A stretch of 64,000 bases of DNA from Roseateles toxinivorans (GTDB lineage: Bacteria > Pseudomonadota > Gammaproteobacteria > Burkholderiales > Burkholderiaceae_C): positions 1 to 64,000 of the forward strand of contig CAMDHE010000007.1 in the NCBI GenBank assembly GCA_945898095.1, read 5' to 3'. This document shows, one piece after another, positions 26,136-57,337 of this stretch; position 1 is the stretch's first letter; the number at the start of each line of letters is the position of its first letter. The notes under the pieces are model-generated. The model was not told the origin of the DNA, ran no database searches, and saw nothing but the letters and a program-made list of their open reading frames with translations. Made by a program: the position numbers and the translations under genes.

Positions 26136-26924
26136 ATGAGTTTGCGAATCTGGGAAGCTTTTGCGATGCGCTATGCCACCGTGCGGCGGCGCAGCCATGA
26201 AAACTTCATCATGGCCGACATCCACGATGAAGACAGCGACATGGACTATTTCGTCTGGTTCCTCAAGTCGGGCGAGGAGACGATCCTGGTTGACACCGGT
26301 TTCAACCAGGCGGCCGCAGAACAACGCAAGCGCAAGTTTTTGCGCTGCCCGATCGATACCTTGCAGGCTTCGGGCATCAAGCTCGAGGACATCCACGACA
26401 CCATCATCACCCATGCCCATTACGACCATGCCGGCAATACGGCCAGGCTCAAGGGCACGCGTTTTCATTTGCAGGAACGCGAAATGTCCTATGCCACCGG
26501 TCGTGACATGCGGCATCGCTTTTGCAGCCACGCTTATGACGCCAGAGACATTTGTGAGCTGGTGATGGCCAATTTCGAAGGTCGGGTCGATTTCCATGAG
26601 GGCGACTACGACTTGCGCTCGGGCATCAGCGTGCATTGGGTCGGCGGCCATACCCGGGGCCTGCAGATCGTCCGTGTGCATACGCAGCGAGGCTGGATCG
26701 TGCTGGCCTCCGACGCTTCGCATTACCTCGAAAACCAGCGCCGGCGCGCGCCATTTCCGATCGTCGTCGATGCCGCCGACATGCTGCGCGGCTTCGAGCT
26801 GATCGAGAAGCTGGCCGATTCGCCCCAGCACATCATCGCCGGCCATGACCCCTTGACCAATGATCTCTACAAAAGCGTCGGCAATCCCTTGCTTGAGATC
26901 GTTTCCTTGACCGACCCGCTATGA
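26136..26924 (+). CDS. MBL-fold metallo-hydrolase, N-acyl homoserine lactonase-like
   Basis: 'DTIITHAHYDHAGN' HxHxDH, 'VHWVGGHTRGLQIV', 'ASDASHYLEN', 'IIAGHDPL'. Confidence 0.85.
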   Translation: MSLRIWEAFAMRYATVRRRSHENFIMADIHDEDSDMDYFVWFLKSGEETILVDTGFNQAAAEQRKRKFLRCPIDTLQASGIKLEDIHDTIITHAHYDHAGNTARLKGTRFHLQEREMSYATGRDMRHRFCSHAYDARDICELVMANFEGRVDFHEGDYDLRSGISVHWVGGHTRGLQIVRVHTQRGWIVLASDASHYLENQRRRAPFPIVVDAADMLRGFELIEKLADSPQHIIAGHDPLTNDLYKSVGNPLLEIVSLTDPL

Positions 26925-26947
26925 AACCAGCCCCAGGAGCAACAGCT

Positions 26948-27961
26948 ATGCAGAACCGATTCAATCCCAGCCAGCGTCGCAGTTGGCTCGCCGCCATGCT
27001 TGCCTTGTCAGCTGGCTTGTCAGCCGGCTTGTCGGGCACAGCACAAGCCCAGACCGACTACCCGGCCAAGCCGATCACGATCGTGATTCCGTTCCCTCCA
27101 GCCGGTTCGACCGATGTGCTGGGCCGCTTGCTGGCGCAGGCCATGAGCAAGAACTTGCAGCAATCGGTCGTCGTCGACAACACCGGCGGCGCTGGTGGCA
27201 CGATCGGCTCCGGCCGGGTCGCGCGCGCACCGGCTGATGGTTACACGCTGCTGTTTCACAATATGGCGCTGGCGAGTGCGCCGGCCCTCTATGCCAAGCT
27301 GACCTTTGACCCGACAGCGGACTTCGAGCCGATCGGCCGGGTGGCCGAAGTGCCGATGATCCTGGTCGCTCGCAAAACCTTTCCTGCCGACAATCTGCAA
27401 GGCGTGTTGGCCTTTGTCAAAGCCAATCCGGGCAAGCTGAATTTTGCCAATGCCGGCATCGGCGCGACCTCGCATTTGTGCGAAGCTTTGTTGGGCTCGG
27501 TGACCGGCTCCAAATGGACCAGCATTCCCTACAAGGGCACCGGACCCGCGCTGAACGATCTGCTCGGCGGGCAGGTCGATTTGATCTGCGACCAGCCGGC
27601 CAGCACGCTCGGCCATATCAAATCCGGCAATCTGAAGCCGATTGCTGTGGCCACGGCGACAAGGCTGAAGTCGATGCCGGCTGTGCCGACTTTTGCCGAG
27701 TCCGGCCTGCCGGGTTTCGAACTGGCGGTCTGGCATGGTCTTTATGCGCCCAAGGGCACGCCCAAGCCAGTCATCGACCGCTTGGTCCTGGCCCTGCAAC
27801 AGGCGCTGCAGGACCCTGGGCTGGTCAAGCAATACCAGGACATGAGCGCGCTGTTTGCCAGCCCCGAGCAGTCCGGCCCGGAAGCCCTGCGCCGCTTTGT
27901 CAAGAGCGAGGTCGAGCGCTGGAAAGCCGCGATGAAGTCGGCCGGCATCCAGCCTGAGTGA
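26948..27961 (+). CDS. Bug-family substrate-binding protein
   Basis: Signal peptide then 'YPAKPITIVIPFPPAGSTDVLGRLLAQAM...DNTGGAGGTIGSGRVARAPADGYT'. Confidence 0.93.
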   Translation: MQNRFNPSQRRSWLAAMLALSAGLSAGLSGTAQAQTDYPAKPITIVIPFPPAGSTDVLGRLLAQAMSKNLQQSVVVDNTGGAGGTIGSGRVARAPADGYTLLFHNMALASAPALYAKLTFDPTADFEPIGRVAEVPMILVARKTFPADNLQGVLAFVKANPGKLNFANAGIGATSHLCEALLGSVTGSKWTSIPYKGTGPALNDLLGGQVDLICDQPASTLGHIKSGNLKPIAVATATRLKSMPAVPTFAESGLPGFELAVWHGLYAPKGTPKPVIDRLVLALQQALQDPGLVKQYQDMSALFASPEQSGPEALRRFVKSEVERWKAAMKSAGIQPE

Positions 27962-27979: not shown

Positions 27980-29137
27980 TCAATCGGTCCAGTCCAAGCG
28001 GTCGAGGCGGCGGTCGGCCATCAGCACACGCTCGGGAATCTCCCAGAGCAGCAGCCGGGGCGGCGTTTGCTTGAAGGCCGCGCTGCCAAGGTAGGCGCGC
28101 GCTGCGCCTGAGAAGTCGCCGCCATCGACGGCGAAATTGGCAACCCTGGCCTGCAGATGCTGGGCCAGGAAGGGCACGAAGTTGCTGTTGCGCGAAAAAC
28201 TGCTGCCGATCACCGCGATCGCCGGCAGTTCGGCATCGCCGAACAAGTCGTCATTTTCGGCATGGCCGGCATTGATGCGCAACAGCTTCGGCGTCATTGT
28301 CGCAATCGGTTCGAAGCGGCTTTGCTGCACCGATTCAGGCCTGGGTTGCAAGGCCATTGGCAGCCAATCGATGCCAGCCAGCTTCACCAGATCACCTGGG
28401 CGCGGTAACCGCTCCCGGCCGGTCATCTGCCAGCCCGGGCTGGACTGTTCTGCGCTGTTGAGTCGCTGGATTTGTTCTGAAATTCTTGCAGCAGCAGCCT
28501 CGGCGCCGGCTTCGGTCCAATGGCTGTCGGTGCGCAAGAACGGGCTTTGCCGCCTGGCCTGCAAGCCAGCCAAGGTGTCGTTCAGGTCGATCACCTCGAC
28601 CCCGGCTTGCGCCAGCCTTGCGGTCCAGTCCTTGACCCGGTTTGCGAAGATGGCCGGCCGTTGCAGGCGGCCGAGATGTTCGGACGCTACCCGGCTCTTG
28701 TCGGGGATGACCGCAACCAGCAAGGCGATGCCCTGACGCGCCAGCCGCTGGTTCAACCAGATGACTTCCTGGGCCCGCGCTGCCGCATCCCTTTCACCAT
28801 CTTCATGCGGCGTGAGTTCGTCGACCAGGAAGAGCCAGTCGCGCTCGCCTTCCCGCACCCGGGGCCCCAGGTCGCCGGCGAGCTGCCCACACAGTCCCCG
28901 GTCGATTTGTGCCGCGCCAGCTGGCAGTCCGGATTTGGCCATCGCCGAAGCGGTCTGCTGCATCGGCGTGCCAGCCATGAAGTCCTGCCAGCCCGTGATG
29001 GGCAGGCTGAAGCCGGCCTCGAACCAGGCCTGGCCATTGCTGCCTAGCCCCAGCAGCAGCAGCAAGAGGAAGCAGAGGCCTGCCATTGCGTCGGGTAAAG
29101 GCACGCGTTGGCTGGGTGCGGCGGTGGGCATGCTCAT
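27980..29137 (-). CDS. AlgJ/AlgX/WssI-like SGNH O-acetyltransferase
   Basis: 'ERDWLFLVDELTPHEDGERD', 'LRTDSHWTEAGAEAAA' (DxH) and 'AVIGSSFSRNSNFVPFL' (Ser) keep the AlgJ/AlgX-type catalytic residues; N-terminal TM. Confidence 0.85.
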   Translation of the reverse strand: MSMPTAAPSQRVPLPDAMAGLCFLLLLLLGLGSNGQAWFEAGFSLPITGWQDFMAGTPMQQTASAMAKSGLPAGAAQIDRGLCGQLAGDLGPRVREGERDWLFLVDELTPHEDGERDAAARAQEVIWLNQRLARQGIALLVAVIPDKSRVASEHLGRLQRPAIFANRVKDWTARLAQAGVEVIDLNDTLAGLQARRQSPFLRTDSHWTEAGAEAAAARISEQIQRLNSAEQSSPGWQMTGRERLPRPGDLVKLAGIDWLPMALQPRPESVQQSRFEPIATMTPKLLRINAGHAENDDLFGDAELPAIAVIGSSFSRNSNFVPFLAQHLQARVANFAVDGGDFSGAARAYLGSAAFKQTPPRLLLWEIPERVLMADRRLDRLDWTD

Positions 29138-29141
29138 TGGC

Positions 29142-30530
29142 TCAGAACTGGAAGTAGAGAAAAGGGGTGGCGCCGCGGCTGGCGATCAGCGCGTAGGAAA
29201 ACAAGAATGCCGGCAAGGGCCATTGACTGGCCAAGGTCATTGCGCGGCCAGGCAACTGCCTGGCAAACGACGCCCTCAGCGCTGGCGCCAGCACGCAGGC
29301 CAGACCCAGACCCAAGGCCAGGCCATGGACCGGACGCAACAGCACCGCCATCGCTTCGCCGATGACGATACCGTTCAAGCCGGCCTGGCCCGCATACATC
29401 TGCATGGCGCCGTCGAAACTGTGGGCGCGGAAGATCGTCCAGGCCAGCATCACGAACAACAGGGTCAGGGCGCGTGACAGCAGCGGTGAGGGCTTTGGCC
29501 AGCCCGCCTGATCCCAGGCTCTTGCGATGCAGAGCGCCAGGCCATGGGCGCTGCCCCAGAGCAGAAAGTTCCAGCTGTCGCCGCCATGCCAGAGCCCGGC
29601 GATCGCCATCGTCAGCAGCAAGTTGACATAGACCCGCAGTGCGCCGACCCGGTTGCCGCCGAAGGGGATGTAGAGGTAGTCGCGGATCCAGCTCGACAGC
29701 GACAGATGCCAGCGGCGCCAGAAGTCCTGGATGCTGGTGGCGAGGTAGGGCTGGCGAAAATTTTCCGGAAAGCGAAAACCCAGCATCAAGCCGAGTCCGA
29801 TCGCCATGCCGCTGTAGCCGGCAAAGTCGAAGAACAGCTGCAGGGTGTAAGCCAGGCAACCGATCCAGCTGTCAAGCAGCGACGGTTGTTGCAGGCTGAA
29901 TGCAAGGTCGACCACCGGAGCGAGGGTGTCCGCAATCAGCACCTTCATGCTCATTCCGGTCATGAAGCGGCGCGCGCCCTGGGCGAATTGCGGCCAGTCG
30001 AAACGCCGCGACAAGAGCTCCTGCTTGACCCATTGATAGCGGATGATGGGCCCGGCGATCAGGTGCACGAACATCGATTGGTAGGCACCAAAGCTGGTGA
30101 AACTGGGGTCAGCCGGGATGCTGCGGCGGTAGACATCGACCAGGTAGGAAATCGACTGCAGCACGATGAAGGACAGCCCGATCGGCAGCAGCACCTGCTG
30201 CCATTGCGCACTGAATCCGGCCGCCAAGGGCAGGCTTTCGACCAGAATGTTGGCGTACTTGAACCAGCACAGCAGCGCCAGGTTGATGCCAATGAAAAAC
30301 GCCAGGGCCAGGCCGCGGCCTTGGTCCAGGCGGTCGATCACCAGTCCGCCGATCCAGCCCATCGCTGCCAGGCCGACGAAGAGCAGCAGGAAAGTCGGGC
30401 TCCACCAGCCATAGAAGACCCAGCTGCAAAGCAGCAGCAAGGCGTTGCGGCGGGTCGGCCCGACCAGCGCATAGAGCGCCAGGAACAGCGGCAGGAACAA
30501 GGTCAAGAACTCGAGCGATGCGAAGACCAT
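29142..30530 (-). CDS. MBOAT family O-acyltransferase (AlgI/WssH-like)
   Basis: 'MVFASLEFLTLFLPLFLALYALV', 'FWRRWHLSLSSWIRDYLYIPFGGNR', 'GLWHGGDSWNFLLWGSAHGLAL'. Confidence 0.93.
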   Translation of the reverse strand: MVFASLEFLTLFLPLFLALYALVGPTRRNALLLLCSWVFYGWWSPTFLLLFVGLAAMGWIGGLVIDRLDQGRGLALAFFIGINLALLCWFKYANILVESLPLAAGFSAQWQQVLLPIGLSFIVLQSISYLVDVYRRSIPADPSFTSFGAYQSMFVHLIAGPIIRYQWVKQELLSRRFDWPQFAQGARRFMTGMSMKVLIADTLAPVVDLAFSLQQPSLLDSWIGCLAYTLQLFFDFAGYSGMAIGLGLMLGFRFPENFRQPYLATSIQDFWRRWHLSLSSWIRDYLYIPFGGNRVGALRVYVNLLLTMAIAGLWHGGDSWNFLLWGSAHGLALCIARAWDQAGWPKPSPLLSRALTLLFVMLAWTIFRAHSFDGAMQMYAGQAGLNGIVIGEAMAVLLRPVHGLALGLGLACVLAPALRASFARQLPGRAMTLASQWPLPAFLFSYALIASRGATPFLYFQF

Positions 30531-30543
30531 CAATACTCCCGGA

Positions 30544-31218
30544 TTACTGTGCCAACTGGTCAGCGGCAATGACCAGCCTGGAGCCGGCATCGGCCGGCAT
30601 CACGAAGATGCTGTAGCGCTGACCGGCTTGCAAGGTGCCCAGCGCCAGAATGGCCTGGTCAAGCTGACCCTGGCATTGCAGTTGCACCGAGATATTGACC
30701 GGATTCAGGCTGCGCCTTGCCAGGCTGCCACTGGCTACCCCTTCGAACAGCGCCACGCTACGGCCCAGCACGTTCAGCCCGGCGGCCTTGCAGCGCTTGT
30801 CAAGGTTGTAGAGCGCCAATGACACTTTCAATGCATTGAAGTCGTCGGGTTGCTCGCGCAACACGACCTGCTTGATGTCGCTGCTACCAGACAGCGCCAC
30901 CACGGTGGCGAACTCGCCCGGCTTGACGCTGACCGCAATCTCGCTTTGAAGCTGTTTGTCGCTGAACTGGCCTTTCACCGCCCGGTTGGCGGGTACGGGA
31001 AAAAAATTGCTGGCTGGCTTCTCCGGCGCCAATTTGGCGCTGGCCTTTGATCCGGCTGCCTTGACATCGATCGCTGCGCTGCGGGCATTGACGAAGCGGA
31101 CAAAAGCGGCATCCTGGCCGGGGCCGGTCTCGTACAAGGGAATCTCGGCGCTGTGAGCTGTAGCAGCCAAGGCGGTGATTGCCGCCGCAGCCCAAGCCTT
31201 CTTGCTGAATGTTCTCAT
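30544..31218 (-). CDS. AlgF/WssG-like periplasmic alginate O-acetylation-family protein
   Basis: Signal peptide, 'IPLYETGPGQDAAFVRFVNARS'; position between SGNH and MBOAT genes; ATGA overlap with the upstream gene. Confidence 0.75.
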   Translation of the reverse strand: MRTFSKKAWAAAAITALAATAHSAEIPLYETGPGQDAAFVRFVNARSAAIDVKAAGSKASAKLAPEKPASNFFPVPANRAVKGQFSDKQLQSEIAVSVKPGEFATVVALSGSSDIKQVVLREQPDDFNALKVSLALYNLDKRCKAAGLNVLGRSVALFEGVASGSLARRSLNPVNISVQLQCQGQLDQAILALGTLQAGQRYSIFVMPADAGSRLVIAADQLAQ

Positions 31219-31871
31219 GGCTTTTTCAGACCCTGAATCGCCGGCAGGGCAGCGATCGCCTGGGTCATCGCCTGACTCCAGGATTTGTAACCGGCCAGCG
31301 TCAGATGCTGGCCATCCAGCGTCGCCCATTGACCGGGCTTGGAAAATTTCAGCGAATCGACATAGATGCAGGGCGCCACATTGCTGGCCAGAAAGTTCGA
31401 CATTTGCTCGACCCGTTGGTCGTTTTTCTTGTACTTGCCGCCTGCCTGTCCCCAGGGCGGGCCGACCCAGACACATTGGGTACGGGTGGCAGCGATCTCC
31501 TTGGCCAGGCTGGTCACGCCTTGCCAGGCCCAGGCGCGCGGAAAGGCATCCTTGTCGTAAGAGGCCATGGCATCGCCGATGATGACGACAACGACATCGG
31601 GCTTCTCAGCCGCAATCAACTGCTTGATCGGCGTCGTCGTGGCATCGCGACCCTTGATGATGGCAGCACCAATGTTGCGGTCGCCGCCGCAGGGCACGGT
31701 GACCGTCTTGAGCCAGTCGCCCGCGCTGGCGCCGCAGGCACCGATCGCATGGACTTTGGCGCCTTGCGCGCTCAGCTCCTCGTGCAATGGATTGATCAGG
31801 TAATTGGCTTGGGACAAATGGCTTTCGCCAATGACGAGCAGGGCGAGTCCGGCGAGGGTTGACGCGGGCAT
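31215..31871 (-). CDS. SGNH/GDSL hydrolase-like protein, copy 1
   Basis: 'LLVIGESHLSQANYLINPLHEEL', 'VVVVIIGDAMASYDK', 'DGQHLTLAGY' (block I and block V residues). Confidence 0.8.
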   Translation of the reverse strand: MPASTLAGLALLVIGESHLSQANYLINPLHEELSAQGAKVHAIGACGASAGDWLKTVTVPCGGDRNIGAAIIKGRDATTTPIKQLIAAEKPDVVVVIIGDAMASYDKDAFPRAWAWQGVTSLAKEIAATRTQCVWVGPPWGQAGGKYKKNDQRVEQMSNFLASNVAPCIYVDSLKFSKPGQWATLDGQHLTLAGYKSWSQAMTQAIAALPAIQGLKKP

Positions 31872-31921
31872 GGTGGGGTATCCAGAAAGGAAGGGTGTAA
31901 AGGTGTGGCGACTGGTTCGGC

Positions 31922-32572
31922 CTAGGGCCGGGCAGGCAAGGGCAGCTCGGCGATGGCCTTGCCAAGCGCCACGCCCCAAGCCTGGTAGCCGCCCGGGAAG
32001 AGATGTTGGCCGTCGACGGTGGGCCAGGTCTTGGGCTGGCTGAGCTTGAGCGAGTCGATGTACTGGCAGGGTGCGACGTTGGCGGCCAGAAAGTCCGACA
32101 TCATCTTCACACGGGCCTCGGTCTTGCCGTACTGGCCGCCCTCGCCCCAGGGCGGGCCGACCCAGACGCAGGCGGTGCCGCTGCTGGCGATTTCCTTGCT
32201 CAGGCTGGTCACCTGCTGCCAGGCCCAGGCCTTGGCGAAGTCCTTCTTGTAGTTGGCCATCGTGTCGCCCATCACCACGACGACCAGCTTGGCCTTGTCG
32301 GCGGCGATCAGCGGCTTGACCGGCCGGGTGCTGGCGTTCTGCACCACCAGCGTCACCGGGCCGTTGCCGATGCGCTCGGCGCCGCAGACCATCTTCACAG
32401 CGCCAAGCCAGTCGGCGGCCGAGGCACCGCAGGCCGACAGGGAGTGCACTACCGCGCCCTGGCGGCTCAGTTCGTCATGCAGCGACTTGATCAGGTAATC
32501 GGGCTTGGAGAGATGGCTGTCGCCGATCACCAGCACCGCGGCACCGACGATCAGGCTTGAGAGAAGTGGCAT
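31922..32572 (-). CDS. SGNH/GDSL hydrolase-like protein, copy 2
   Basis: 'VLVIGDSHLSKPDYLIKSLHDEL', 'VVVVMGDTMANYKKD', 'VWVGPPWGEGG', 'DGQHLFPGGY'; roughly half identical by eye to the neighbouring copy. Confidence 0.8.
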   Translation of the reverse strand: MPLLSSLIVGAAVLVIGDSHLSKPDYLIKSLHDELSRQGAVVHSLSACGASAADWLGAVKMVCGAERIGNGPVTLVVQNASTRPVKPLIAADKAKLVVVVMGDTMANYKKDFAKAWAWQQVTSLSKEIASSGTACVWVGPPWGEGGQYGKTEARVKMMSDFLAANVAPCQYIDSLKLSQPKTWPTVDGQHLFPGGYQAWGVALGKAIAELPLPARP

Positions 32573-32601
32573 GGTGTGTTCCTGCTGTCAAAGAGTGTTG
32601 G

Positions 32602-35600
32602 TCACTGCCCGAACGGCGAGGCGTGGCTGCTGATCGGCAGCGACAGCGGCGCGTTGAGCGGGTGGAAGCTGTAGCGCAGCGTCAACCCGGCCGACCATTG
32701 GCGGTAGCTGCCACGGGCGTTGTTGTCGTTCTGCAAGCTGGCGTCGAGCAGCCAGTTCGGGTTGAGCTGGTACTGCGCGCTGGCGGCCAGCTTGTAAGCG
32801 GCGCCCGACGACGACACCGACTCGAACGCCGCGCCTCCACCCGCCGCGGCCATGTCCTGACTGAATTTCTGGTAGCCCAGCGCACCCTGCAACAGGAAGC
32901 TGAGCGGCCCGCTGCGTTGCGCCCAGTTCAGCGGAATCGTCAGCGCGTTGTAGCGCTGCGGGCTGAAATAGCCGCCCTGGCCGAAACCGAACTCACCGAG
33001 GTTTTTTTGGTAGGACAGGCTGTTGAGGTCCAGGCCCAGGCTCAGTTGGCTGTCGGCACGGCTGCGCAGGCTGAAGTAGCTGCCCAGGCCGAATTCACTT
33101 CGACCATTCGCTGCCACCTCGTGGCCGCGCAGATCGTGCCGGGCCACACTGCCGTAAAAGCCGTGGCCTCCCAGGTCCTTGGACAGGTCGAGGCGGGCAC
33201 CGCTGGCAACCACCCCGCCCCAGGACTTGCCGCTGACGCTGTCGCGCGCGCCGGCGAATGACAGCAAGCTGTCGGTGACCGAGCGCCGCGACAGATTGAC
33301 CCGGTAGCGCAGCGAACCGTCGTCAGCCAGCGCGCCGTCGAGCTTGACGCCGCCGACGGTGTTGCTGTGCTGAAAACCTCGCGGCGTCTGGCCGATGTCG
33401 ACCGCGATACCGGGCGCGGCATAAGCCACCGCCACCGCGACGCCCGAGGCCTTCTGGGTGATCGTTGCCCCCGTGGCAGACGATCCGGCGTCCAGTGACA
33501 CCTGGGTCAGCTGCAGCTTGACCTTGCCCTCGCCCAAAGGCAGCCGTAACTCGACCGGCAACTCGGTCTGGCGCAACAAGCTGGTGCCGGCCACGCCGCT
33601 GCGCTGACGGTCGTGCAGGCCGGCCCATGCTTCGGGGCTGCGAGCCTGGCGGATCTGGTCGAGCTCGTTGCGCAGGTTCGGTCCTGCGGGCTGGTCAGGG
33701 GTGGCGCCCTCGGTCGCAGCGGCGCTCGTCGCGGTCAATATTCTGGCCGATTTGCCGCCGGCGACCACACGCGGAGCAGTTGCCGCCTGCTGCAGCGCCG
33801 GGCGGGTCTTGGTTGGCGGGCCGCGCCAGTAGTCCATCGGTGCGGTAAGCGGCAGGCGCAGCGCCGCAGTCTGCAACTCGACGCGCCCGCTGCGCTCGTC
33901 CAAGGGCTCGGCCAGATCGCCGGCCGAGCCACCCGCCGCCAGCACCGCCTGGTGGCCTGGCGCCGGAGCGTTCTGCAGCGCGATGGCGCGTTCGAACAGG
34001 CTTGCGGCCAGAACCGACTGGCCCTGGTCGCGGTACAGCCGGGCCGCGCGGGCCAGCACTTCAGCGTCATCGGGGGCCAGGGCCAGCGCGGTCTTGATCG
34101 ACGCGGCGGCCAGCTCGCTGTCCTTGAACCGGGCAGCCAGCTGCGCCGTGCTCAGCTGGATCTCGACGTTGTCGGGGTACTTGGCGGCCAGCCTGCGGGC
34201 GGTCTCCAGCCCGGTACGCTTGTCAGCGGTGGAGATCGCCAGCCGGGCCAGTACGGCATCGGCCAGTGGGTCGTTGGGTCGTTGCAGCAGCAGCGGTTCG
34301 AGCAGGGCCCGGCCACCGGCCAGGTCGCCGCGCTCGCGCAGCAGGTCGACTTGGCGCAGCCCGTGGTAGTACATCAGGTCGTCCAGCCGCTTGCGATCGG
34401 CCTCGCTCAGCGAGCGGGCAGCCAGGTCCCTCAGCACGCCGGCGAATTCGACATCCTGCCTGGTCTTGAGCAGCAGGTTGGCGTACTGCAGCGAATCGGC
34501 CGCGCTCGGCTGGCTGCTGCGCGTCAACAGGTCGCGCAGCAGGGCCAGGCCACGGTCGGGCGCGCCGGCATCGACATAGGTCTCGGCCAGCAGGCCTAGC
34601 AAGTCGCGGTTGCCAGCAGTCAGCGGCTCGGCTTGGTCGAGCAGCGCCAGCGCCTCGGGCTTGCGGCCCTGACGCGCCAGGCTGGCCGCCAATGCCGCCT
34701 GGTGCTGCAGCCAACTGCGCCGCTGCAACGAGGCGATGTCGGCGCTGCGTTCCTTGGCCGGAATGCGGTCCAGCGTGGCCAGCGCCGAGCGCCATTGGCC
34801 GCGGCCGGCGGCGAAACTGGCACTGGCATGCAGTGCGACCGGGTTGTCGGGCTGGCTGGCGAGCAAACCGTCGACCAGGCCGCGGGCCTCGCTGTGGCGG
34901 CCCTGCAAGGCATAGAGCTCGGCCAGCTCCCAACGAATCCAGGGGTTCTTGCGGTCCTGGGCCATCGCCTTTTCGAGCGTGGCTTGGGCCAGCGCGGTGT
35001 CGCCGCGCCGCAGCGCGGCCTTGGCTTGAACGCTGGCCAGCGTGGCGCGCAGGCGGTTCAGCTCGTCGACACCACCGACCTGGGCCGGCTTCAAGCCGTC
35101 GATCAGGCGGCGCGCCTCGTCGGGTTTGTCGCCAGCGACCAGCAGACCAGCCAGGCCGCGCAGCGCCGCCGGGTCGTCGGCGCTGCGCGCCAGCACCTGG
35201 CGGTAGCCAAGCTCCGCTGCAGCCACCTCGCCCGCCTGGACCTGCAGCGCCGCCAGTGCGAGTACCGCGCCGTCCAGCCTGGGGTCGAGCTTGACCGCCT
35301 GTTGCAGCAGGCTGTGCGCCTGCGCCAGGTCGCCCTCGCGCTGCGCGGCCGTGCCCTGTTCGATCAGCATCCCGTAGCGTGCCGACAGCTGCACCTTGGC
35401 CCAGTTGTGACCGTTTCGCTGCTGCGTGGCCTGGGTCAGCAGTGCCGCCGATTCCTCCCAGCGGCTCTGCTGCATGCGCACCAGGCCGAGGCCGCCGAGC
35501 GCATCTGCATCCTTGGGGCTGGTCTTGAGCCGGGCCTGGTACTGGGCCTCGGCCTGCGCCAGATCACCCTGGCCGAGCGCCTTCAGCCCGGCGGCGATCT

Positions 35601-36441
35601 GCGGCTGCGCCTGGCCCGGCGCGGCGGACTTGGCCAGCTTCTTGACCGCGGCGGCGCGCATTTCGACGACCTCGTTGTCGCCCGGGTGCAGTTTCAGGAA
35701 GGCGTCGAACAGCGCCAGTATCTCGGGCTTGGTACTCGGCCAGCTCAGGGCCATCTTCCAGCACTCGATGGCGAAGCCGCTGACGCTGGGCACCAGGGAT
35801 ACCCGGCCCAGGCGCTGGATGCCCTCGATGCGGGTGTCCCAGTTTGGCTCCTCGCCGCGGGCCAAGTGGAATGCCAGGTGCAGCTCGATCTGCGCCTCGC
35901 CTGGGCTATCCTTGGCCAGCCGCTCGAAGCCGGCGCGCGCGGTCTTCCAGCCGCTCGGCAGCTTGCTGACGACGCGGAAGTATTCGAGCCCGACATCGCC
36001 CACCGGCTCGCTGCCGCCTAGCGCACGCTGGTACTGCTCGACCGACTTCTCGATGTCGCCCGACTCGTGCAACAGCCGCGCCTGGTCCAGCGCCTTGGGC
36101 GCATCGCCGCTGCCCAGGGTGATGTCCTGTGCCAGCTGAGTCGCCCAGCGGCCGTTGGCATCCAGCGCGCGCAGGCGGAGCAGGATCTCGCTCGCGCTCG
36201 CGCTGCGCTTCTGGGCCAGTTCGCCCTGCGCCAAGCCGTAGAGCGCACGCGGCTCGTCGGGTTGCAGTCGCAGCAGCTTTTTCCAAGCCTCGGCGGCGCG
36301 GGCTGGATTGCCTTGCGCTTGCCAGAACAGCCCTTGATCAAGCAATGACTTGTTGGCGGCTGCGTAGACGTTACCGGCCTGGCAGCTCGCGCCGACGATC
36401 AGACTTAGGGCTAGTTTGCTGGGGAACATGAGTTTTGCCAT
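32602..36441 (-). CDS. bcsC: Cellulose synthase outer-membrane/TPR subunit BcsC
   Basis: 1279 aa, TPR repeats followed by C-terminal barrel domain; follows bcsZ; BcsC-typical end '...WSAGLTLRYSFHPLNAPLSLPISSHASPFGQ'. Confidence 0.92.
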   Translation of the reverse strand: MAKLMFPSKLALSLIVGASCQAGNVYAAANKSLLDQGLFWQAQGNPARAAEAWKKLLRLQPDEPRALYGLAQGELAQKRSASASEILLRLRALDANGRWATQLAQDITLGSGDAPKALDQARLLHESGDIEKSVEQYQRALGGSEPVGDVGLEYFRVVSKLPSGWKTARAGFERLAKDSPGEAQIELHLAFHLARGEEPNWDTRIEGIQRLGRVSLVPSVSGFAIECWKMALSWPSTKPEILALFDAFLKLHPGDNEVVEMRAAAVKKLAKSAAPGQAQPQIAAGLKALGQGDLAQAEAQYQARLKTSPKDADALGGLGLVRMQQSRWEESAALLTQATQQRNGHNWAKVQLSARYGMLIEQGTAAQREGDLAQAHSLLQQAVKLDPRLDGAVLALAALQVQAGEVAAAELGYRQVLARSADDPAALRGLAGLLVAGDKPDEARRLIDGLKPAQVGGVDELNRLRATLASVQAKAALRRGDTALAQATLEKAMAQDRKNPWIRWELAELYALQGRHSEARGLVDGLLASQPDNPVALHASASFAAGRGQWRSALATLDRIPAKERSADIASLQRRSWLQHQAALAASLARQGRKPEALALLDQAEPLTAGNRDLLGLLAETYVDAGAPDRGLALLRDLLTRSSQPSAADSLQYANLLLKTRQDVEFAGVLRDLAARSLSEADRKRLDDLMYYHGLRQVDLLRERGDLAGGRALLEPLLLQRPNDPLADAVLARLAISTADKRTGLETARRLAAKYPDNVEIQLSTAQLAARFKDSELAAASIKTALALAPDDAEVLARAARLYRDQGQSVLAASLFERAIALQNAPAPGHQAVLAAGGSAGDLAEPLDERSGRVELQTAALRLPLTAPMDYWRGPPTKTRPALQQAATAPRVVAGGKSARILTATSAAATEGATPDQPAGPNLRNELDQIRQARSPEAWAGLHDRQRSGVAGTSLLRQTELPVELRLPLGEGKVKLQLTQVSLDAGSSATGATITQKASGVAVAVAYAAPGIAVDIGQTPRGFQHSNTVGGVKLDGALADDGSLRYRVNLSRRSVTDSLLSFAGARDSVSGKSWGGVVASGARLDLSKDLGGHGFYGSVARHDLRGHEVAANGRSEFGLGSYFSLRSRADSQLSLGLDLNSLSYQKNLGEFGFGQGGYFSPQRYNALTIPLNWAQRSGPLSFLLQGALGYQKFSQDMAAAGGGAAFESVSSSGAAYKLAASAQYQLNPNWLLDASLQNDNNARGSYRQWSAGLTLRYSFHPLNAPLSLPISSHASPFGQ

Positions 36442-37610
36442 TTGAGTTGTACCTGTCCATTGCGCGCGAAGCTGAAGCGCTGTTCAATCCAGCCGAGCCC
36501 GAACAGGCTCAGCACATGGTCGTAATAGAGCGGCAGGCCCTTGGCGAGCTGCTCGGGCAGCAGCGAGGCGGCGCGCATCGAGCGCGCCCGTTCTACCTGC
36601 TGCAACATCGGTCCGCTCGCACCGATCTGCTGCAGATAGGGCGCTATGGCTGCTGAAAATCCGAACGGCCCGGTGCCGCTGGCCAAACCGGTCTGCGTAT
36701 CGACCGATTCAGGTGGCCAGGCGTCTTGTGGATTGCTCCGATTCATGCCGCTCAAGGATTTCAGCAAGGGCGCTGCCAAAGGATCATCAGCCGCCGTCAT
36801 ACCGGCCCACAGATAAACGCGGATCGCGTCATAGCTGCCGCGTGCGCCGAGCACCGGATCGACCGTGACCATCGGTCGGCGCTCTGCGCTGGCGCGATAG
36901 CCGACCCAATCCGCCACCAGACCTTTGGGGCTCGCCATCGCAATCAGCAGGACGGTGTTCGAAGCGATGTCGTTCCAGGGCCCTTGCGGATCTTCTTGCG
37001 CGAAGCGGCGCAGCTGCGGCAAGGCCAGATAGCTGGGATTGAGCCGCCAGCTGCCATCGGACTGCACAAAGCCATAGGGCGCAGGCAACAGCATCGGCCC
37101 GATGCCGGGCAGGTCGACGACTTCCTGTTTGGCAATCGCCTTGAGAAGCAATTGGCCGTCGCGGACCAGATCGTCGCGCGCCCAGATCCGGCCGGCTTCG
37201 AGCAGGGTATAGGCGAACCATAGATCGGCATCGGCGGCTGAATTGCTGTCGAGTACGCGCCAGTTGCCGTCGCTGGCCCGGCCCCAATGCCAGGCAGGCA
37301 ACTTGCCGGCAGCCGGATCTGCGCCCAGCAGGTTCTGTATCGACCAGCGCCAGAGCTGGTTGAAGGCCTGCTGGTCGTTGGCCACCAAGGCGAAAAACAT
37401 GGCATAGGACTGCGCTTCAGAAAAACTATCACGCATCGCGCTATTGGCAGCCAGCACGCGTCCGTCCGGCTCGATGAAATGCTGCTTGAAGTCCTGCCAA
37501 TGGGGCCAATCCTGGGAACTGCATCCTGTGGCGTAGACGCCCGGGACGCCTGAGACGGCCGCGCTCAAGGCCAGGCCGACGGCAGCCAGCCCTTTACCCA
37601 AATTGCTCAT
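36411..37610 (-). CDS. bcsZ: Periplasmic endoglucanase BcsZ (GH8)
   Basis: 'WPHWQDFKQHFIEPDGRVL', 'SFSEAQSYAMFFALVANDQQAFNQLWRW', 'NSAADADLWFAYTLLEAGRIW'. Confidence 0.93.
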   Translation of the reverse strand: MSNLGKGLAAVGLALSAAVSGVPGVYATGCSSQDWPHWQDFKQHFIEPDGRVLAANSAMRDSFSEAQSYAMFFALVANDQQAFNQLWRWSIQNLLGADPAAGKLPAWHWGRASDGNWRVLDSNSAADADLWFAYTLLEAGRIWARDDLVRDGQLLLKAIAKQEVVDLPGIGPMLLPAPYGFVQSDGSWRLNPSYLALPQLRRFAQEDPQGPWNDIASNTVLLIAMASPKGLVADWVGYRASAERRPMVTVDPVLGARGSYDAIRVYLWAGMTAADDPLAAPLLKSLSGMNRSNPQDAWPPESVDTQTGLASGTGPFGFSAAIAPYLQQIGASGPMLQQVERARSMRAASLLPEQLAKGLPLYYDHVLSLFGLGWIEQRFSFARNGQVQLKWQNSCSPAN

Positions 37611-39895
37611 GGCGCTGAGCGCTTTTTCGCCTGGGCGCGCAGGATTGCTATTGTCGGCCAGGCCAGCAGCAAGGCGCCGATGGCGCCGACCAGCAGCAGC
37701 AAAGCGAAATTTTCCGACAAGGTCAGGCGCGTCTGGGTGAACCAGTCCAGGTCGCCGACATGGTAGGTCGGCTTGGAGCTCAGCATCTCGACCTGCTGGC
37801 CGCGCAGCACCGCCAGGCTGCCGGAAATTTTCGACGTCAGCAGATCATCGCCGAGCAGCGCGCCGATGCCGGCCTGCAGCCGATCGGGGTCAGCACCCCA
37901 GAGCAGCACCACCGATCGGCCGCTGCGCAGCGGTGACTCGAATCCGGCCGCGTAGGCGCTCATGCCCTTGCTGCTGAATTCGTTGGCCGGTGCAGCTTTA
38001 AGCGATTCAGGCAGGAACCCGGTCAGCCAGGCAAGCGCCTGGTCGAACATGCCGGCCAGACCTGCACGCTGGCCATCGTCGAGTCCTGCTGGCATAGCGC
38101 CGGCCCAGGACTTCAGCAAGGGCTGGTTGTCGCCCGAAGCGATCAGCAGCAGGTCCTTGGATGCAACGCTGTCGACCTGTGCGCTGCGTACCACCTCGAT
38201 GCCGGTACCGGGATAGCCGGTCGATTCGCCGAGGCGGCCGAGCAGGTCCAGATAGGCCGAGAGTTCCTGAACCTTCGGTTGATCCGGTAGCACGACTGCA
38301 GTCTGCGACAGATCAGCCAGACGGGTGAAAGGAAAGCCGATGCGACCGAATGCGGCCAGATCAGGCATGGCCAGAAAATGGCTATAACCCGAGATGTCGA
38401 TGGTCGAATCAGGGTCGATGGCGCCGCGTACGTTGTCGATGATGACGTCGCGGCATTCGCCTTGCTTGATGTAGTCGTATTGGTAGCGCAGGTCGATCTG
38501 CGACCGCGGCTGCAGCATCGCCAGCGGAATTTTTGCCATTGCCTGCATCGGCAGCGTTTCATCGGATTGCAGTTTTGCCAGCATCGGACCGGTGCCGAGT
38601 TTTTCGATCGGCAGCAGAGGCACTGACTTCACGAATTTGCCATTGACGTCGACCGTCAGCGATGAATTGGCCGAGGTCGGTTGTGGCGTGTAGCGGTATT
38701 TCAGATTCAGCGGTACGCCTTTGTCCTGCCAGCTGAACAGGTCAGGGGGCAGGCGCAGCTTGATGGCGATCGCGCCCGGGTCGTAGCCGGTGACATCAAG
38801 CGCTTGGGAACTGCTCAATTCACCCAGCTTGACCGGCCGGTCGGCGCGCAGCCAGTTCGGCGCGTCGTAGGGCCGGCGCGGACGCAGTTCGGGGACCTCG
38901 GTGATCGAAGCCAGCGGCCCAGTCAAGGCTTTCGATTCATTGGCCAGCGCCCTGGCTGCCAGTTTCAGGTCCTGGCTATCGCGCCCCATCACCAGCAGCA
39001 GCTTGCCATTCGGATCATTCGGATTGGCAAGCACCGCCAGAGCCGGGCCCGATGCGGTGGGCATTTTCATCCCGCTGATGGCTGCCTGCCCGTTGAGGAA
39101 GACGATCGCATTGCCTTTGGCTGGAATCAAGTCGATTGCCGCCGGGAAATGCAGGATCCTGCCGTTGGCACGGGCGCCGAACCAGGAGACCAAGGTGCCT
39201 GCGGCTTCCAGCATGCTGTTGTCAGGTTGGCCCTGAAACACCACCGGCAAACGCAAGTTACGGCCGTCTCTGGCATCGAAAAATGGTTCGGGCAATCCGG
39301 CAAGTTCGTTCGGCAAGGGGTTGGCGTCACTGCTCAGCTCGAGCTCGCTCTGGTTGCTGATATTGGCCCACAAGCTGCTGTGTTGGGGATCTTCGCAACC
39401 GGTCGTGTAATGCCCGATCAATTGCAGGGTCAGCTGGTTGTATTCGGTCACCAGATGCGGCGGCAAGTTGACGACCTGGGTCACCTGTGCGCCGGCCGCA
39501 TCCTTGGGCAAGGTCAGGCTGGCGGCGACTTCGCCGTTGATCAATACATTTATTTTTGACAGCTCGCTGAGCAACTCGGGTGAATAGGCATAGCTGAGCT
39601 TGAGCGTCGCTTTGCTGATCACCTCATCGGCCCGGACATTGAACGGGATCGAATAACGGCCATCGACACCGCGCAGATTGAAGGGATGCTTGACGCCGAG
39701 CTGCTTGAAGCTCAGGCGGTAAGGGAGGCCGTCGGCCGCAGCCGTGGTGGCAGGGCTGTCGGGCTTGCTGGCAGGTTGGGCGCCCAGGGTGGCGCAACAG
39801 CTCAGCATGGCTACCGCCATCAGCCGCACAAGTTTGCTGGCGGCCGGATGCGCAGGGGTCGGAAATCTTGACATCGATGACATCGCTTGGTTCAT
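37607..39895 (-). CDS. bcsB: Cellulose synthase periplasmic subunit BcsB
   Basis: 'LSFKQLGVKHPFNLRGVDGRYSIPFNVRADEVISKATLKLSYAYSPELL', C-terminal TM; between bcsA and bcsZ. Confidence 0.94.
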   Translation of the reverse strand: MNQAMSSMSRFPTPAHPAASKLVRLMAVAMLSCCATLGAQPASKPDSPATTAAADGLPYRLSFKQLGVKHPFNLRGVDGRYSIPFNVRADEVISKATLKLSYAYSPELLSELSKINVLINGEVAASLTLPKDAAGAQVTQVVNLPPHLVTEYNQLTLQLIGHYTTGCEDPQHSSLWANISNQSELELSSDANPLPNELAGLPEPFFDARDGRNLRLPVVFQGQPDNSMLEAAGTLVSWFGARANGRILHFPAAIDLIPAKGNAIVFLNGQAAISGMKMPTASGPALAVLANPNDPNGKLLLVMGRDSQDLKLAARALANESKALTGPLASITEVPELRPRRPYDAPNWLRADRPVKLGELSSSQALDVTGYDPGAIAIKLRLPPDLFSWQDKGVPLNLKYRYTPQPTSANSSLTVDVNGKFVKSVPLLPIEKLGTGPMLAKLQSDETLPMQAMAKIPLAMLQPRSQIDLRYQYDYIKQGECRDVIIDNVRGAIDPDSTIDISGYSHFLAMPDLAAFGRIGFPFTRLADLSQTAVVLPDQPKVQELSAYLDLLGRLGESTGYPGTGIEVVRSAQVDSVASKDLLLIASGDNQPLLKSWAGAMPAGLDDGQRAGLAGMFDQALAWLTGFLPESLKAAPANEFSSKGMSAYAAGFESPLRSGRSVVLLWGADPDRLQAGIGALLGDDLLTSKISGSLAVLRGQQVEMLSSKPTYHVGDLDWFTQTRLTLSENFALLLLVGAIGALLLAWPTIAILRAQAKKRSAP

Positions 39896-39898
39896 GGG

Positions 39899-42067
39899 TT
39901 AATTGGGACGGCTGGCGCCGCGGCGCAACTTGACAGGCATGCCAAAGCCTCTGCCCAGAGACAGGCGCAACAGGTTGGCACTGCCAAAGCTCAAAACATT
40001 GCGCAGCGAGGTCAAGGGCGCGTCGATCGTCGAGCGGCCCCATTCGCCCAGCCAGGCATCGGCGCGGGAGAAGGTGACCTGCGCCAACTCGCGTTGCTGG
40101 GTCACGGTCAAAGCAGCGAACTCGATGCCGACGATCGATCCTTCGCTGACCACGGTGCCGGGCAACACGGTCTCGAAGCTGCTGCTGCTCAGCGCAATAT
40201 TGATCTTCTCGCCCAGCTTGACGCTGGTTTCGGCGGGCAAGGCCAGACTGACGCCATCGGTTGACAGATCGCGGGTTTCGCAGACCAGGGTGCGACCATT
40301 GGGCAGGTGGATCGTCGCCGGCAGCACCGCATTGACCCGCGGCGTGGAACGCATCTGACTGGCTTCGTTGGCAACGAAGACGGCCGCGCTGGTGATGGTG
40401 ATGTTGTAGAGCCCCCAGACCAGGTTGATCACCACGGTCGAAGCGCTGCCATCGCCGGACAGCAGTCGCCAGGCACCCGCGGCTATCCCGGCCAGATTCA
40501 GCAACAGCAGCACCAGATAGGGCGAACCCATGCGCCAGTCGTAATAGTTTTCCTTGACGATCCCGCCCTTGGCCGTGACATTGAATTTGCCGAGCTTGGG
40601 GCTGAGCAGGGCCAACAGCACCGGCCAACTGATGTACCAGGCCAGGACGGTCTCATAGACCTCGTTCCAGAAGCTGTGTCTGAACTGGCCCTGCAGTCTC
40701 GAATTGGTCGCGATACTCAGCAGGATATGCGGCAAGGCAAAGGTCAAGACCATCACCCCCGAAGCCTGGAAGATCTGCGCGCCGAAAAAAAGATAAGCCA
40801 AGGGCGCTGTCAGGAACACCAGACGCGGCAGCCCATAGAAGAAATGCAGCATCGCATTGGCGTAGCAGAGTCTTTGTCCCCAGGTCAGCCCGCGACCCAG
40901 AAACGGGTTGTCGATGCGGAAGATCTGGGCCATGCCGCGCGCCCAGCGGATGCGATGTCCGATATGAGCAGACAGGCTTTCGGTGGCCAGTCCGGCGGCC
41001 TGCGGGATCGCCAGATAAGCCATGTTGTAGCCCTTGCGGCTCATCTTCAGCGAGGTATGTGCGTCTTCGGTGACGGTCTCTACGGCAATACCGCCGACCT
41101 CCATCAAGGCCTTGCGTCGCAACACGGCGCAGGAACCACAGAAGAAGGCCGCATTCCAGAGGTCATTGCCGTCCTGCACCAGGCCATAGAACAATTCGCC
41201 TTCGTTGGGGACGACCCGGAAGGTATTGAGGTTGCGTTCGAACGGATCGGGCGAATAGAAGACATGCGGCGTCTGCAGCATGGCCAGCTTCTTGTCATGC
41301 AGGAAAGCGCCCAGGGTGAGCTGCAAAAACGACCTTGTCGGCACATGGTCGCAATCGAAGATCACCACGAACTCGCCTTGGCTGCGCGCCAACGCGGCGT
41401 TGAGGTTGCCGGCCTTGGCATGGGAATTGTCATTGCGCGTCAGGTAAATCACTCCAGCCGCCTGGCTGAAGACTTTGAACTCTTCGCGGCGTCCGTCGTC
41501 GAGCAGATGGACGCGCAAACGGCCGGTCGGCCAGTCCATAGACTGCGCGGCCAGCACCGTGGCACGGACCACGCTCAGTGGTTCGTTATAGGTCGGAATG
41601 AAGACATCGATCGTCGGCCATGTGTTGATGTCGGCGGGCAAGGGTTGCGGCTTGCGCTTCAAGGGCATGGTGGTCTGCACATAGCCGAGCAGCAGGATGG
41701 TCAAGGCATAGATCTCGGCCAGCACCAAACCCCAGCCGAGGATGCCGTCGAGCAGATGATCGAAGTCGAGCGTATTGCTCAAGCGCCAGAACATATAGCG
41801 CAGCGATGCGGTCACCGACAGCACGACCATCACAATCACCCCGATCTGGCCCGGCACCGAACGCCTGATCCAGAGCGCTGCGATCACCGTGAGGCTGCCG
41901 AAGGCGAATTGCTGATAGACGTCGAGCGGCACCGCAATCACCATTGCGGTCATGACAGCGGCGACCAGCAGCAAGGCTTTGCTCAGCAGCGGATGGGCCT
42001 GCCAGCGAGTTTTGACTTTTGTGCCTGACAGCCATTCAGCAGGCTGGGCGGGTGTTGCGCTTTTCAC
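39899..42067 (-). CDS. bcsA: Cellulose synthase catalytic subunit BcsA with PilZ domain
   Basis: GT2 motifs 'HLLDDGRREEF', 'FDCDHVP', 'TVTEDAHTSLK'; PilZ 'RSTPR' and 'DLSTDG'. GTG start at 42067 overlaps bcsQ stop (GTGA); ORF extends to 42115. Confidence 0.95.
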   Translation of the reverse strand: MKSATPAQPAEWLSGTKVKTRWQAHPLLSKALLLVAAVMTAMVIAVPLDVYQQFAFGSLTVIAALWIRRSVPGQIGVIVMVVLSVTASLRYMFWRLSNTLDFDHLLDGILGWGLVLAEIYALTILLLGYVQTTMPLKRKPQPLPADINTWPTIDVFIPTYNEPLSVVRATVLAAQSMDWPTGRLRVHLLDDGRREEFKVFSQAAGVIYLTRNDNSHAKAGNLNAALARSQGEFVVIFDCDHVPTRSFLQLTLGAFLHDKKLAMLQTPHVFYSPDPFERNLNTFRVVPNEGELFYGLVQDGNDLWNAAFFCGSCAVLRRKALMEVGGIAVETVTEDAHTSLKMSRKGYNMAYLAIPQAAGLATESLSAHIGHRIRWARGMAQIFRIDNPFLGRGLTWGQRLCYANAMLHFFYGLPRLVFLTAPLAYLFFGAQIFQASGVMVLTFALPHILLSIATNSRLQGQFRHSFWNEVYETVLAWYISWPVLLALLSPKLGKFNVTAKGGIVKENYYDWRMGSPYLVLLLLNLAGIAAGAWRLLSGDGSASTVVINLVWGLYNITITSAAVFVANEASQMRSTPRVNAVLPATIHLPNGRTLVCETRDLSTDGVSLALPAETSVKLGEKINIALSSSSFETVLPGTVVSEGSIVGIEFAALTVTQQRELAQVTFSRADAWLGEWGRSTIDAPLTSLRNVLSFGSANLLRLSLGRGFGMPVKLRRGASRPN

Positions 42068-42840
42068 GCGACCGTCCGGTAACTCATTGTCAGACGGGAC
42101 AGCACCTGCTCGCAAATCAGCGCCAGGTCTGCGGCCCCGCGGCTGTGTTTGTCGTAATCGCAGACGAACTGGTTGCAGGCCAAGGCTTCAGGAATGGCCT
42201 GGTCCTGATGCACCAGCCCCATTGCCTTCTTGCCGAACTGCGTGCGCATGACATAGGCGACATCACTATTGAGTTGGCGCGAATGGTCGACCTGGTTGAC
42301 CAGATAGGCATAGTCATTGAAGTCATTGCGATTCAGGCAATAGCGTTGGATCAGACCGATCATCGAGGGCAGGGTGGCGTAAGAAGCCGCATCCGACAGC
42401 ACGACGATCAAGGCCATATTCGCTGCCGTCAAGGCTTGGGTCAGGTAGACCGAGGGCCCGGGTGGGGTGTCGACGATGACCACCGCATCTTCAGGCAGGT
42501 TCAGCATTTCGAGCCTTTGCCGCAGCAGCATTGGCTGCTCCCTGAGCAGATGTTCGAAGGCCTCTCGGTCTTCTTCCTCGACCTGCCCGTAAGGCATCAA
42601 GTCACAACCGAACTCTGTTTGCAGCAAGGCATGGCGCCAATCCATGCCGGTCAAGGCGGCTTCGACGAGTCCATCGTCGTGCGGCAAATCGAGGCCGAAA
42701 TGCAACTGCAGGGCGTTCTGTGGGTCAAGGTCGACGGCCAATGTCGGAACGCCGGCGCGCGAGATGGCCATGCTGAGGTTGGCGCTAAGGGTGGTCTTGC
42801 CGACACCACCTTTGGCCGAAACGATGGCAATGATTTTCAT
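42064..42840 (-). CDS. bcsQ: Cellulose biosynthesis ParA/MinD-like ATPase BcsQ
   Basis: 'MKIIAIVSAKGGVGKTTLSANLSMAI' deviant Walker A; adjacent to bcsA. Confidence 0.93.
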   Translation of the reverse strand: MKIIAIVSAKGGVGKTTLSANLSMAISRAGVPTLAVDLDPQNALQLHFGLDLPHDDGLVEAALTGMDWRHALLQTEFGCDLMPYGQVEEEDREAFEHLLREQPMLLRQRLEMLNLPEDAVVIVDTPPGPSVYLTQALTAANMALIVVLSDAASYATLPSMIGLIQRYCLNRNDFNDYAYLVNQVDHSRQLNSDVAYVMRTQFGKKAMGLVHQDQAIPEALACNQFVCDYDKHSRGAADLALICEQVLSRLTMSYRTVA

Positions 42841-42842
42841 GT

Positions 42843-43319
42843 TCAGGCCGCCTTCTTGAAGAGTGACAGCTTGATGTCGGCCGCCTGGCCGGCTTCAACG
42901 CGCTGGGATGCCTCGATTCGCTTGAAAAGCTGGCCGAGTTCACTGTTTGATTTGGCTGGCTGTTGCATCGATTCCGGCCTTGCTGGCTGGGCCGCAGCGT
43001 TGACCACCGCGGCCAACAATGGCATGGCCGCCTTGACAGGCGCAGGACTGCGAATCGGCATTGGTGCAGCAGGCATGGCGCGGCTGCGCTGCGCTGCGGC
43101 AGGCAAATCGGCCGGCAAATCGACGCTGGTCCATGGGCGCTCGCGGCGCCTACCGCGCCGCGCCGCTGTTGCCACAGGTTCTGCGCTCAGGCCCTGGGCC
43201 AGCAATGGCCAGCGGGCCTGGCATTTGCTGGCCAGTTCGTCGCGAACGATTTCGCGGTAATCACCAAAGTCGTCACCAACGATGGATCTCAGGCTCTGGA
43301 TGTCTTTTGCCATTTTCAT
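42843..43319 (-). CDS. bcsP: Cellulose biosynthesis accessory protein, BcsP/BcsR-like
   Basis: 'SIVGDDFGDYREIVRDELASKCQARWPLLAQG' resembles the BcsR/BcsP RWPLL motif; Ala/Pro-rich remainder; position between bcsD and bcsQ. Confidence 0.7.
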   Translation of the reverse strand: MKMAKDIQSLRSIVGDDFGDYREIVRDELASKCQARWPLLAQGLSAEPVATAARRGRRRERPWTSVDLPADLPAAAQRSRAMPAAPMPIRSPAPVKAAMPLLAAVVNAAAQPARPESMQQPAKSNSELGQLFKRIEASQRVEAGQAADIKLSLFKKAA

Positions 43320-43366
43320 TGGGTAGCTTGTTATGGGTTTGATGGACGGCTTGCTTGCGTCAAGGC

Positions 43367-43837
43367 TTACAGACTGAGCTCGAGTTCGAGCGTGCCGAAT
43401 TCGTCGACCTGGCTGACTTGCCGTACGCACAACTCGTTGCTCGCCCCGAGGCTGGCCAGCCACTGCTGGTAGACGCCGCTGAGGAATGAAGGCACCCAGA
43501 CCTTGGTGTCATCACCCAATGCCGCGGCCAGCAAGTCGCCGTTGCCCGCGCCATGGTGGACGATGCGCAACTTGCCGCCGGCATCGTCGAGGTCGATCCA
43601 GCCCCAATCCATGCTTTGCCAACGGGCCGAAATGGCGATCTGCAGTTCTTCCAGATTGCTGCAGACCGCCAAGGCCGATTGGGTTGCGTAGCGTTGGCCG
43701 ATGCGGTGAGCGAAATCATGGCCATTGCTGTGCCGGCTGGTGCCGGACAGCTCCTGCGCCATCGCCGCGAGTACGCTGCGCCATTGGCGTGAACATTCAC
43801 GCTGAATCTTGTAATCTGTATTTTTGGAAGGGGTCAC
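43367..43837 (-). CDS. bcsD: Cellulose synthase subunit BcsD
   Basis: 'LAAALGDDTKVWVPSFLSGVYQQWLASLGASNELCVRQV' BcsD C-terminal pattern; GTG start at 43837 with AGGAG upstream. Confidence 0.87.
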   Translation of the reverse strand: MTPSKNTDYKIQRECSRQWRSVLAAMAQELSGTSRHSNGHDFAHRIGQRYATQSALAVCSNLEELQIAISARWQSMDWGWIDLDDAGGKLRIVHHGAGNGDLLAAALGDDTKVWVPSFLSGVYQQWLASLGASNELCVRQVSQVDEFGTLELELSL

Positions 43838-57322: not shown

Positions 57323-57337
57323 ACCGGCGCCAAGACC

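Follow-up and report, generated by a model that had tools for sequence, protein, structure and literature searches.

The locus described here raises the question of whether a cellulose synthase system that contains BcsD can also acetylate its product. It is found in Roseateles toxinivorans (NCBI GenBank assembly GCA_945898095.1, contig CAMDHE010000007.1, positions 1 to 64,000 of the forward strand; this whole stretch of 64,000 nucleotides is called the window below), where twelve minus-strand genes at 27980-43837 follow one another in the order bcsD-bcsP-bcsQ-bcsA-bcsB-bcsZ-bcsC-wssF-wssF-wssG-wssH-wssI. We consider it highly probable that these genes form a hybrid operon, in which a type I BcsD/BcsP synthase is joined to a Wss-type acetylation module, and that the product is most likely a partly O-acetylated cellulose for the biofilm matrix. 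A sequence-only reading of the same DNA had also proposed acetylated cellulose from a BcsD-type synthase, but regarded the combination as mechanistically odd, because acetylation would be expected to disturb the packing of the chains.

The spacing between the twelve genes ranges from -31 to +50 nt, with the start of bcsA overlapping the end of bcsQ through GTGA, and all twelve are free of frameshifts and internal stop codons. Ten of them are identified by Pfam, the two SGNH genes being the remainder. The number, order and strand of the genes, and their operon-like layout with short gaps or overlaps, are as the sequence-only reading had given them. Start sites were set at ATG 43319 for BcsP, GTG 42067 for BcsA, ATG 31871 for the second SGNH protein (WssF copy 2), ATG 31218 for the AlgF-like WssG and ATG 30530 for the MBOAT protein WssH. 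Upstream, the operon is bordered by a 360-nt gap after a same-strand FAD-linked oxidase, and downstream by a convergent TctC gene. Its genes are the following (database matches in brackets).

43367..43837, minus strand: BcsD, type I cellulose secretion subunit serving as cytosolic scaffold, GTG start (Pfam Cellsynth_D, PF03500, 1.3e-16)
42843..43319, minus strand: BcsP, partner of BcsD, with BcsR-like N-terminus and proline-rich tail (PF10945, 1.1e-9)
42064..42840, minus strand: BcsQ, MinD-like ATPase (TIGR03371, 5.9e-69, over cut-off; Pfam BcsQ, 4e-39)
39899..42067, minus strand: BcsA, cellulose synthase, GT2 with C-terminal PilZ (TIGR03030, 894 bits, over cut-off)
37607..39895, minus strand: BcsB, periplasmic co-catalytic subunit (Pfam BcsB, 5.8e-218)
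36411..37610, minus strand: BcsZ, GH8 endoglucanase (Pfam GH8, 1.2e-59)
32602..36441, minus strand: BcsC, TPR domain and outer-membrane barrel (Pfam BCSC_C, 1.3e-79, and TPR families)
31922..32572, minus strand: WssF-like SGNH protein, copy 1 (AlphaFold fold and invariant S19, D187 and H190)
31215..31871, minus strand: WssF-like SGNH protein, copy 2 (58% identical to copy 1)
30544..31218, minus strand: WssG, AlgF-like periplasmic protein with signal-like N-terminus (Pfam AlgF, 2.6e-9)
29142..30530, minus strand: WssH, MBOAT O-acyltransferase of the AlgI/DltB type (Pfam MBOAT, 2.1e-24)
27980..29137, minus strand: WssI, AlgJ/AlgX-family O-acetyltransferase (Pfam ALGX, 8e-75)

The identities of these genes and their motifs are established by the present analysis. 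As in type I Bcs systems, bcsD lies within the bcs cluster, and the proline-rich partner (BcsH, BcsP or BcsO) is represented by BcsP, which contains 11% proline past residue 50 and falls below the NCBIfam cut-off. The best solved relative of BcsD is 8pkd ('Cellulose synthase operon protein D', 5.7e-23), and BcsA matches the E. coli BcsA structures (E 1e-236). The Walker A motif of BcsQ is intact (KGGVGKTT), and both PilZ motifs of BcsA, RxxxR and DxSxxG, are present.

Directly downstream of bcsC, the order wssF-G-H-I is that of a Wss acetylation module. Neither WssF copy has any Pfam or NCBIfam match; the AlphaFold (AF2) model of copy 1, with a predicted local distance difference test (pLDDT) score of 91.4, has SGNH esterases and the peptidoglycan O-acetyltransferase PatB among its PDB matches, and Ser19, Asp187 and His190 are invariant across 31 homologues, including both copies. 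On this modelled structure, the two unclassified proteins are WssF-like with a predicted SGNH fold, copy 2 being the version common to the nearest relatives (97%). WssH matches DltB structures (1.4e-23) and has a WHG motif at residue 314, while WssI matches the AlgJ structure 4o8v at 1.1e-32 and AlgX at 1.6e-19, and carries the AlgJ-type DSH and GSS motifs (TDSHW and GSSFS); the SGNH catalytic residues of WssI and the MBOAT histidine of WssH are in place.

If such enzymes are encoded next to a cellulose synthase, they might still modify a different exopolysaccharide, e.g. alginate, to whose acetylation proteins they are homologous. The assembly, however, holds a single ALGX-family (AlgX/AlgJ) gene, so that the pair formed by AlgJ and a separate AlgX in alginate systems is absent; moreover, in almost all wssF loci that were fetched the acetylation cassette comes after bcsC, and within the genus it is present or absent together with bcsA. 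We therefore regard this alternative as very improbable. The assembly also holds one bcsA, and bcsG (PF11658), which marks the type II systems producing phosphoethanolamine (pEtN) cellulose, was not found anywhere in it, the E. coli control being positive; for bcsG, the earlier observation that the pEtN route is not seen in the window therefore extends to the whole assembly. With one bcsA, one ALGX-family gene and no bcsG, cellulose is the obvious substrate.

Within the genus, bcsD, wssF and a true bcsA coincide in the same 4 of 18 species, the other 14 being without all three, which indicates that the cluster is gained or lost as a whole. A clean empty site in the non-carrier species is borne out on one side only: the flank with the FAD oxidase is syntenic across the genus, but the oxidase is followed there by something other than the TctC gene found next to the cluster in the window. 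Taken together, the single synthase, the single ALGX protein, the all-or-none distribution of the cluster and the position of wssF-G-H-I after bcsC lend support to the proposal of an acetylated cellulose, which nevertheless keeps the status of a prediction from sequence.

Concerning the flanks, the segment 44198-47274, which comprises the FAD-linked oxidase together with a divergently oriented neighbour, is syntenic throughout the genus, and in several cluster-free species the oxidase is followed by a gene 35-38% similar to the open reading frame at 57323-60526 of the window. The convergent TctC-family gene (26921-27961), past the AlgJ-like gene, also occurs in Pigmentiphaga and G033 loci (L178, L179, L039).

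By homology with better characterized systems, the operon may be pictured as working in the following way. Cyclic di-GMP would bind the PilZ domain of BcsA, and a cytosolic scaffold of BcsP, BcsD and BcsQ would hold and activate the BcsA-BcsB synthases, from which the glucan chain would enter the periplasm. There, WssH would hand acetyl groups across the inner membrane to WssI, with WssG gathering the acetylation enzymes, and WssI and/or the WssF proteins would place acetyl on the glucan; BcsZ would trim the chain, and BcsC would export it. Acetyl transfer onto cello-oligomers is known for WssI of Pseudomonas fluorescens and of Achromobacter insuavis, and cellulose acetylation is affected in wssFGHI mutants (PMC10302187); AlgF is a protein-protein mediator joining AlgJ and AlgX (PMC10641220). 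Catalysis, acetyl relay, scaffold and acetylation of the product are all attributed here by analogy with such homologues.

The presumed incompatibility between BcsD and acetylation depends on where BcsD acts. Older work put BcsD in the periplasm (reviewed in PMC4646962); were it to order the chains outside the cytosol, it would conflict with acetylation, and crystalline and acetylated cellulose would have to be kept apart in time or space. Yet the N-terminus of BcsD is neither hydrophobic nor signal-like, and according to recent structural work BcsD forms scaffolds inside the cell together with BcsP or BcsH, BcsP, whose N-terminus is BcsR-like, recruiting BcsD into these cytoskeletal structures (PMC11470070). 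The pairing is, in addition, long-lived and widespread (see below), and we give an extracytosolic BcsD very little credence. If BcsD works as a scaffold inside the cell and Wss acetylation takes place in the periplasm, as the homologues suggest, the expected conflict need not arise, because scaffold and acetyl relay would act in different compartments. The mechanistic objection of the sequence-only reading is thus not upheld.

Nor is the combination unusual in its distribution. A scan of GTDB contigs for WssF returned 178 relatives, and 80 loci were retained from these; bcsA-B-Z-C followed by wssF-G-H-I was observed in nearly all of those long enough to judge. Among 49 wssF-bearing genomes tested, bcsD was present in 21, namely in nearly all the Burkholderiales except Herbaspirillum and one metagenome-assembled genome (MAG; G835), and in no Pseudomonas. 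Overall, bcsD is uncommon, being found in 8 of 399 sampled Burkholderiales genomes and, by the tool's tally, in 2 of 369 genomes of a thinner class-wide sample. When the loci were read through, a single same-strand cluster of bcsD and acetylation genes was confirmed in Castellaniella defragrans DSM 12141, Pararobbsia silviterrae and Polynucleobacter aenigmaticus, as well as in two Pigmentiphaga, three Paraburkholderia and several MAGs; isolates among the carriers are C. defragrans DSM 12141, Paraburkholderia guartelaensis, P. aenigmaticus and Pigmentiphaga humi. The search for bcsD and MBOAT/AlgJ genes in one operon elsewhere, which had been advised as a check, thus found many examples. P. aenigmaticus and the MAG bin.388 match the operon of the window gene for gene and in order, down to the tandem wssF, and the layout D-(P)-Q-A-B-Z-C-F-(F)-G-H-I is repeated in Polynucleobacter, Sheuella, Alcaligenaceae and other loci, with minor departures in Pigmentiphaga, Xylophilus and Paraburkholderia. 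On plasmids, wssF gave only four distant matches, in Roseomonas, Pseudoroseomonas and Methylobacterium. The view that the pairing is rare was rejected on these counts and on the many joint clusters; far from being odd, it is the usual form in wssF-bearing Burkholderiales.

Two further observations were made on these loci. Tandem bcsB genes occur in the hybrid clusters of Castellaniella, Parapusillimonas, Pararobbsia, Paraburkholderia and CAII-53 (L023, L175, L176, L180, L181, L185, L186), and in L015 and L182 (G033 and a Xylophilus MAG) matches to bcsC flank bcsZ on both sides, as if the gene were split or duplicated.

Phylogenetic trees gave a consistent picture. In the BcsA tree, wss-cluster synthases are set apart (support 1.0) from the synthases of bcsD clusters that have no wss; the exceptions, L090 and L110, are represented by an additional bcsA from the distal end of the locus, and not by the wss-linked synthase. 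The MBOAT (WssH) tree unites the BcsD-bearing Burkholderiales, with support 1.0, in a group separate from Pseudomonas, and both trees agree in dividing a BcsD-less Pseudomonas/Herbaspirillum group from the BcsD-bearing Burkholderiales. Four Herbaspirillum loci nest inside Pseudomonas in both trees, and the Herbaspirillum wss genomes lack bcsD (L079, L087, L088, L092, L096, L098); horizontal transfer from Pseudomonas is the probable source of the BcsD-less form in Herbaspirillum. Shared inheritance is thereby established, and the topologies of the two trees indicate that the pairing of BcsD with acetylation is old and has long been co-inherited, though, with an outgroup picked for having bcsD, the trees do not fix the sequence of gains and losses. 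Since BcsD and the cellulose acetylation genes are co-inherited across Burkholderiales, BcsD should not be taken as a marker of crystalline, unmodified cellulose.

It should be noted that some points weigh against a functional hybrid operon producing acetylated cellulose. A scan for sigma-70-like promoters found none, so that co-transcription is presumed from gene spacing, and BcsP scores 1.2e-9 against NCBIfam NF040718, under the curated cut-off of that model. Finally, the QxxRW motif of BcsA is altered at the following codon.

40955..40957, minus strand: BcsA codon CAT (His) at the Gln position of QxxRW (alignment of BcsA sequences)

The motif reads HRIRW, with His as residue 371, while Gln occupies the first position in 36 of 36 other aligned BcsA sequences, and the two nearest relatives carry CAG (Gln). 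This could mean lowered activity or an assembly error. If the former, the operon might be non-functional or reduced in this strain, yielding little or no polymer; we consider this unlikely, though a little less so than the two alternatives discussed above, because all twelve genes are without frameshift or internal stop, the other checked motifs are intact, and one differing base in a draft assembly may reflect an error rather than a natural variant. The hybrid operon described above remains the preferred explanation.

This histidine is one of two features that the sequence-only reading had not noted. The other is a tract exchanged by recombination.

31900..36350 (about 4.4 kb), minus strand: recombinant tract, almost all of bcsC and wssF copy 1 (identity switch between relatives)

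Over coding windows outside 31.9-36.35 kb, identity to the related genome G016 is 0.83-0.98; inside, G016 and G017 drop to about 0.60-0.79, and the MAG loci L040 and L041 climb to 0.80-0.94 where they cover it. Informative sites inside the tract group the window with L041 (550 versus 115), and those outside group it with G017 (407 versus 63), the change of closest relative at the lower-coordinate boundary being highly significant (Fisher p = 2e-128). One breakpoint falls close to where bcsC starts and the other between wssF copies 1 and 2, and G016 and G017 have no wssF copy 1 at that place. The locus L040 is titled Bordetella parapertussis, probably a misnaming; its wssF is 94% identical to copy 1 of the window.

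The alginate export machinery offers a parallel, for there AlgX binds AlgK, a TPR protein (PMC10641220). This parallel, and the joint movement of bcsC and wssF, suggest a contact between the two proteins, and we tentatively put forward, as a possibility that we consider rather doubtful, that bcsC and wssF copy 1 are an exchangeable export-and-acetylation unit, in which WssF would dock on the TPR domain of BcsC as AlgX does on AlgK. A single event involving adjacent genes is weak evidence for such a contact. If it were true, docking would explain the paired recombination and set the finishing of the polymer en route to the outer membrane, and the swapped tract would be a trace of bcsC-wssF coupling.

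Several known systems resemble this operon in part. Pseudomonas aeruginosa AlgIJFX shares with it the MBOAT, AlgJ/AlgX-family and AlgF-like parts, but the window has a cellulose synthase in place of the alginate polymerase, and its WssF proteins fall outside the ALGX Pfam family. In Komagataeibacter, BcsX of bcsII (BcsX, BcsY) is reported to be WssF-like, whereas K. xylinus E25, unlike the window, reportedly has no wssGHI-type genes (PMC9318390). The acetylated-cellulose systems of Achromobacter insuavis and Bordetella avium 197N (PMC10302187, PMC7112194) have in common with it a beta-proteobacterial Wss machinery; the B. avium operon is reported to contain a tandem wssC (BcsB) and not a tandem wssF (PMC7112194), and it is this tandem wssC that the tandem bcsB of Castellaniella, Pararobbsia, Paraburkholderia and Parapusillimonas resembles. 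The wss operon of Pseudomonas fluorescens SBW25, which produces acetylated cellulose, shares BcsQ-A-B-Z-C followed by WssF-G-H-I, an order matching that of the Pseudomonas loci fetched here; the tested Pseudomonas relatives lack BcsD, however, and because BcsD is present, the operon in the window is a hybrid rather than a Pseudomonas-type wss. There is also a likeness to the beta-proteobacterial type I or hybrid Bcs operons with bcsP-bcsD-bcsQ discussed in a 2024 paper (PMC11470070, citing Sana et al. 2024, Curr Biol), which share BcsD, BcsP, BcsQ, BcsA, BcsB, BcsZ and BcsC; the window differs from what is described there by its tandem wssF, also present in P. aenigmaticus and an Alcaligenaceae MAG. 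The same paper names hybrid operons and states that BcsD systems scaffold "both crystalline and modified cellulose". The combination of BcsD with cellulose modification is thus an already recognized arrangement, and many related soil and freshwater bacteria carry this gene set, frequently with an unchanged order.

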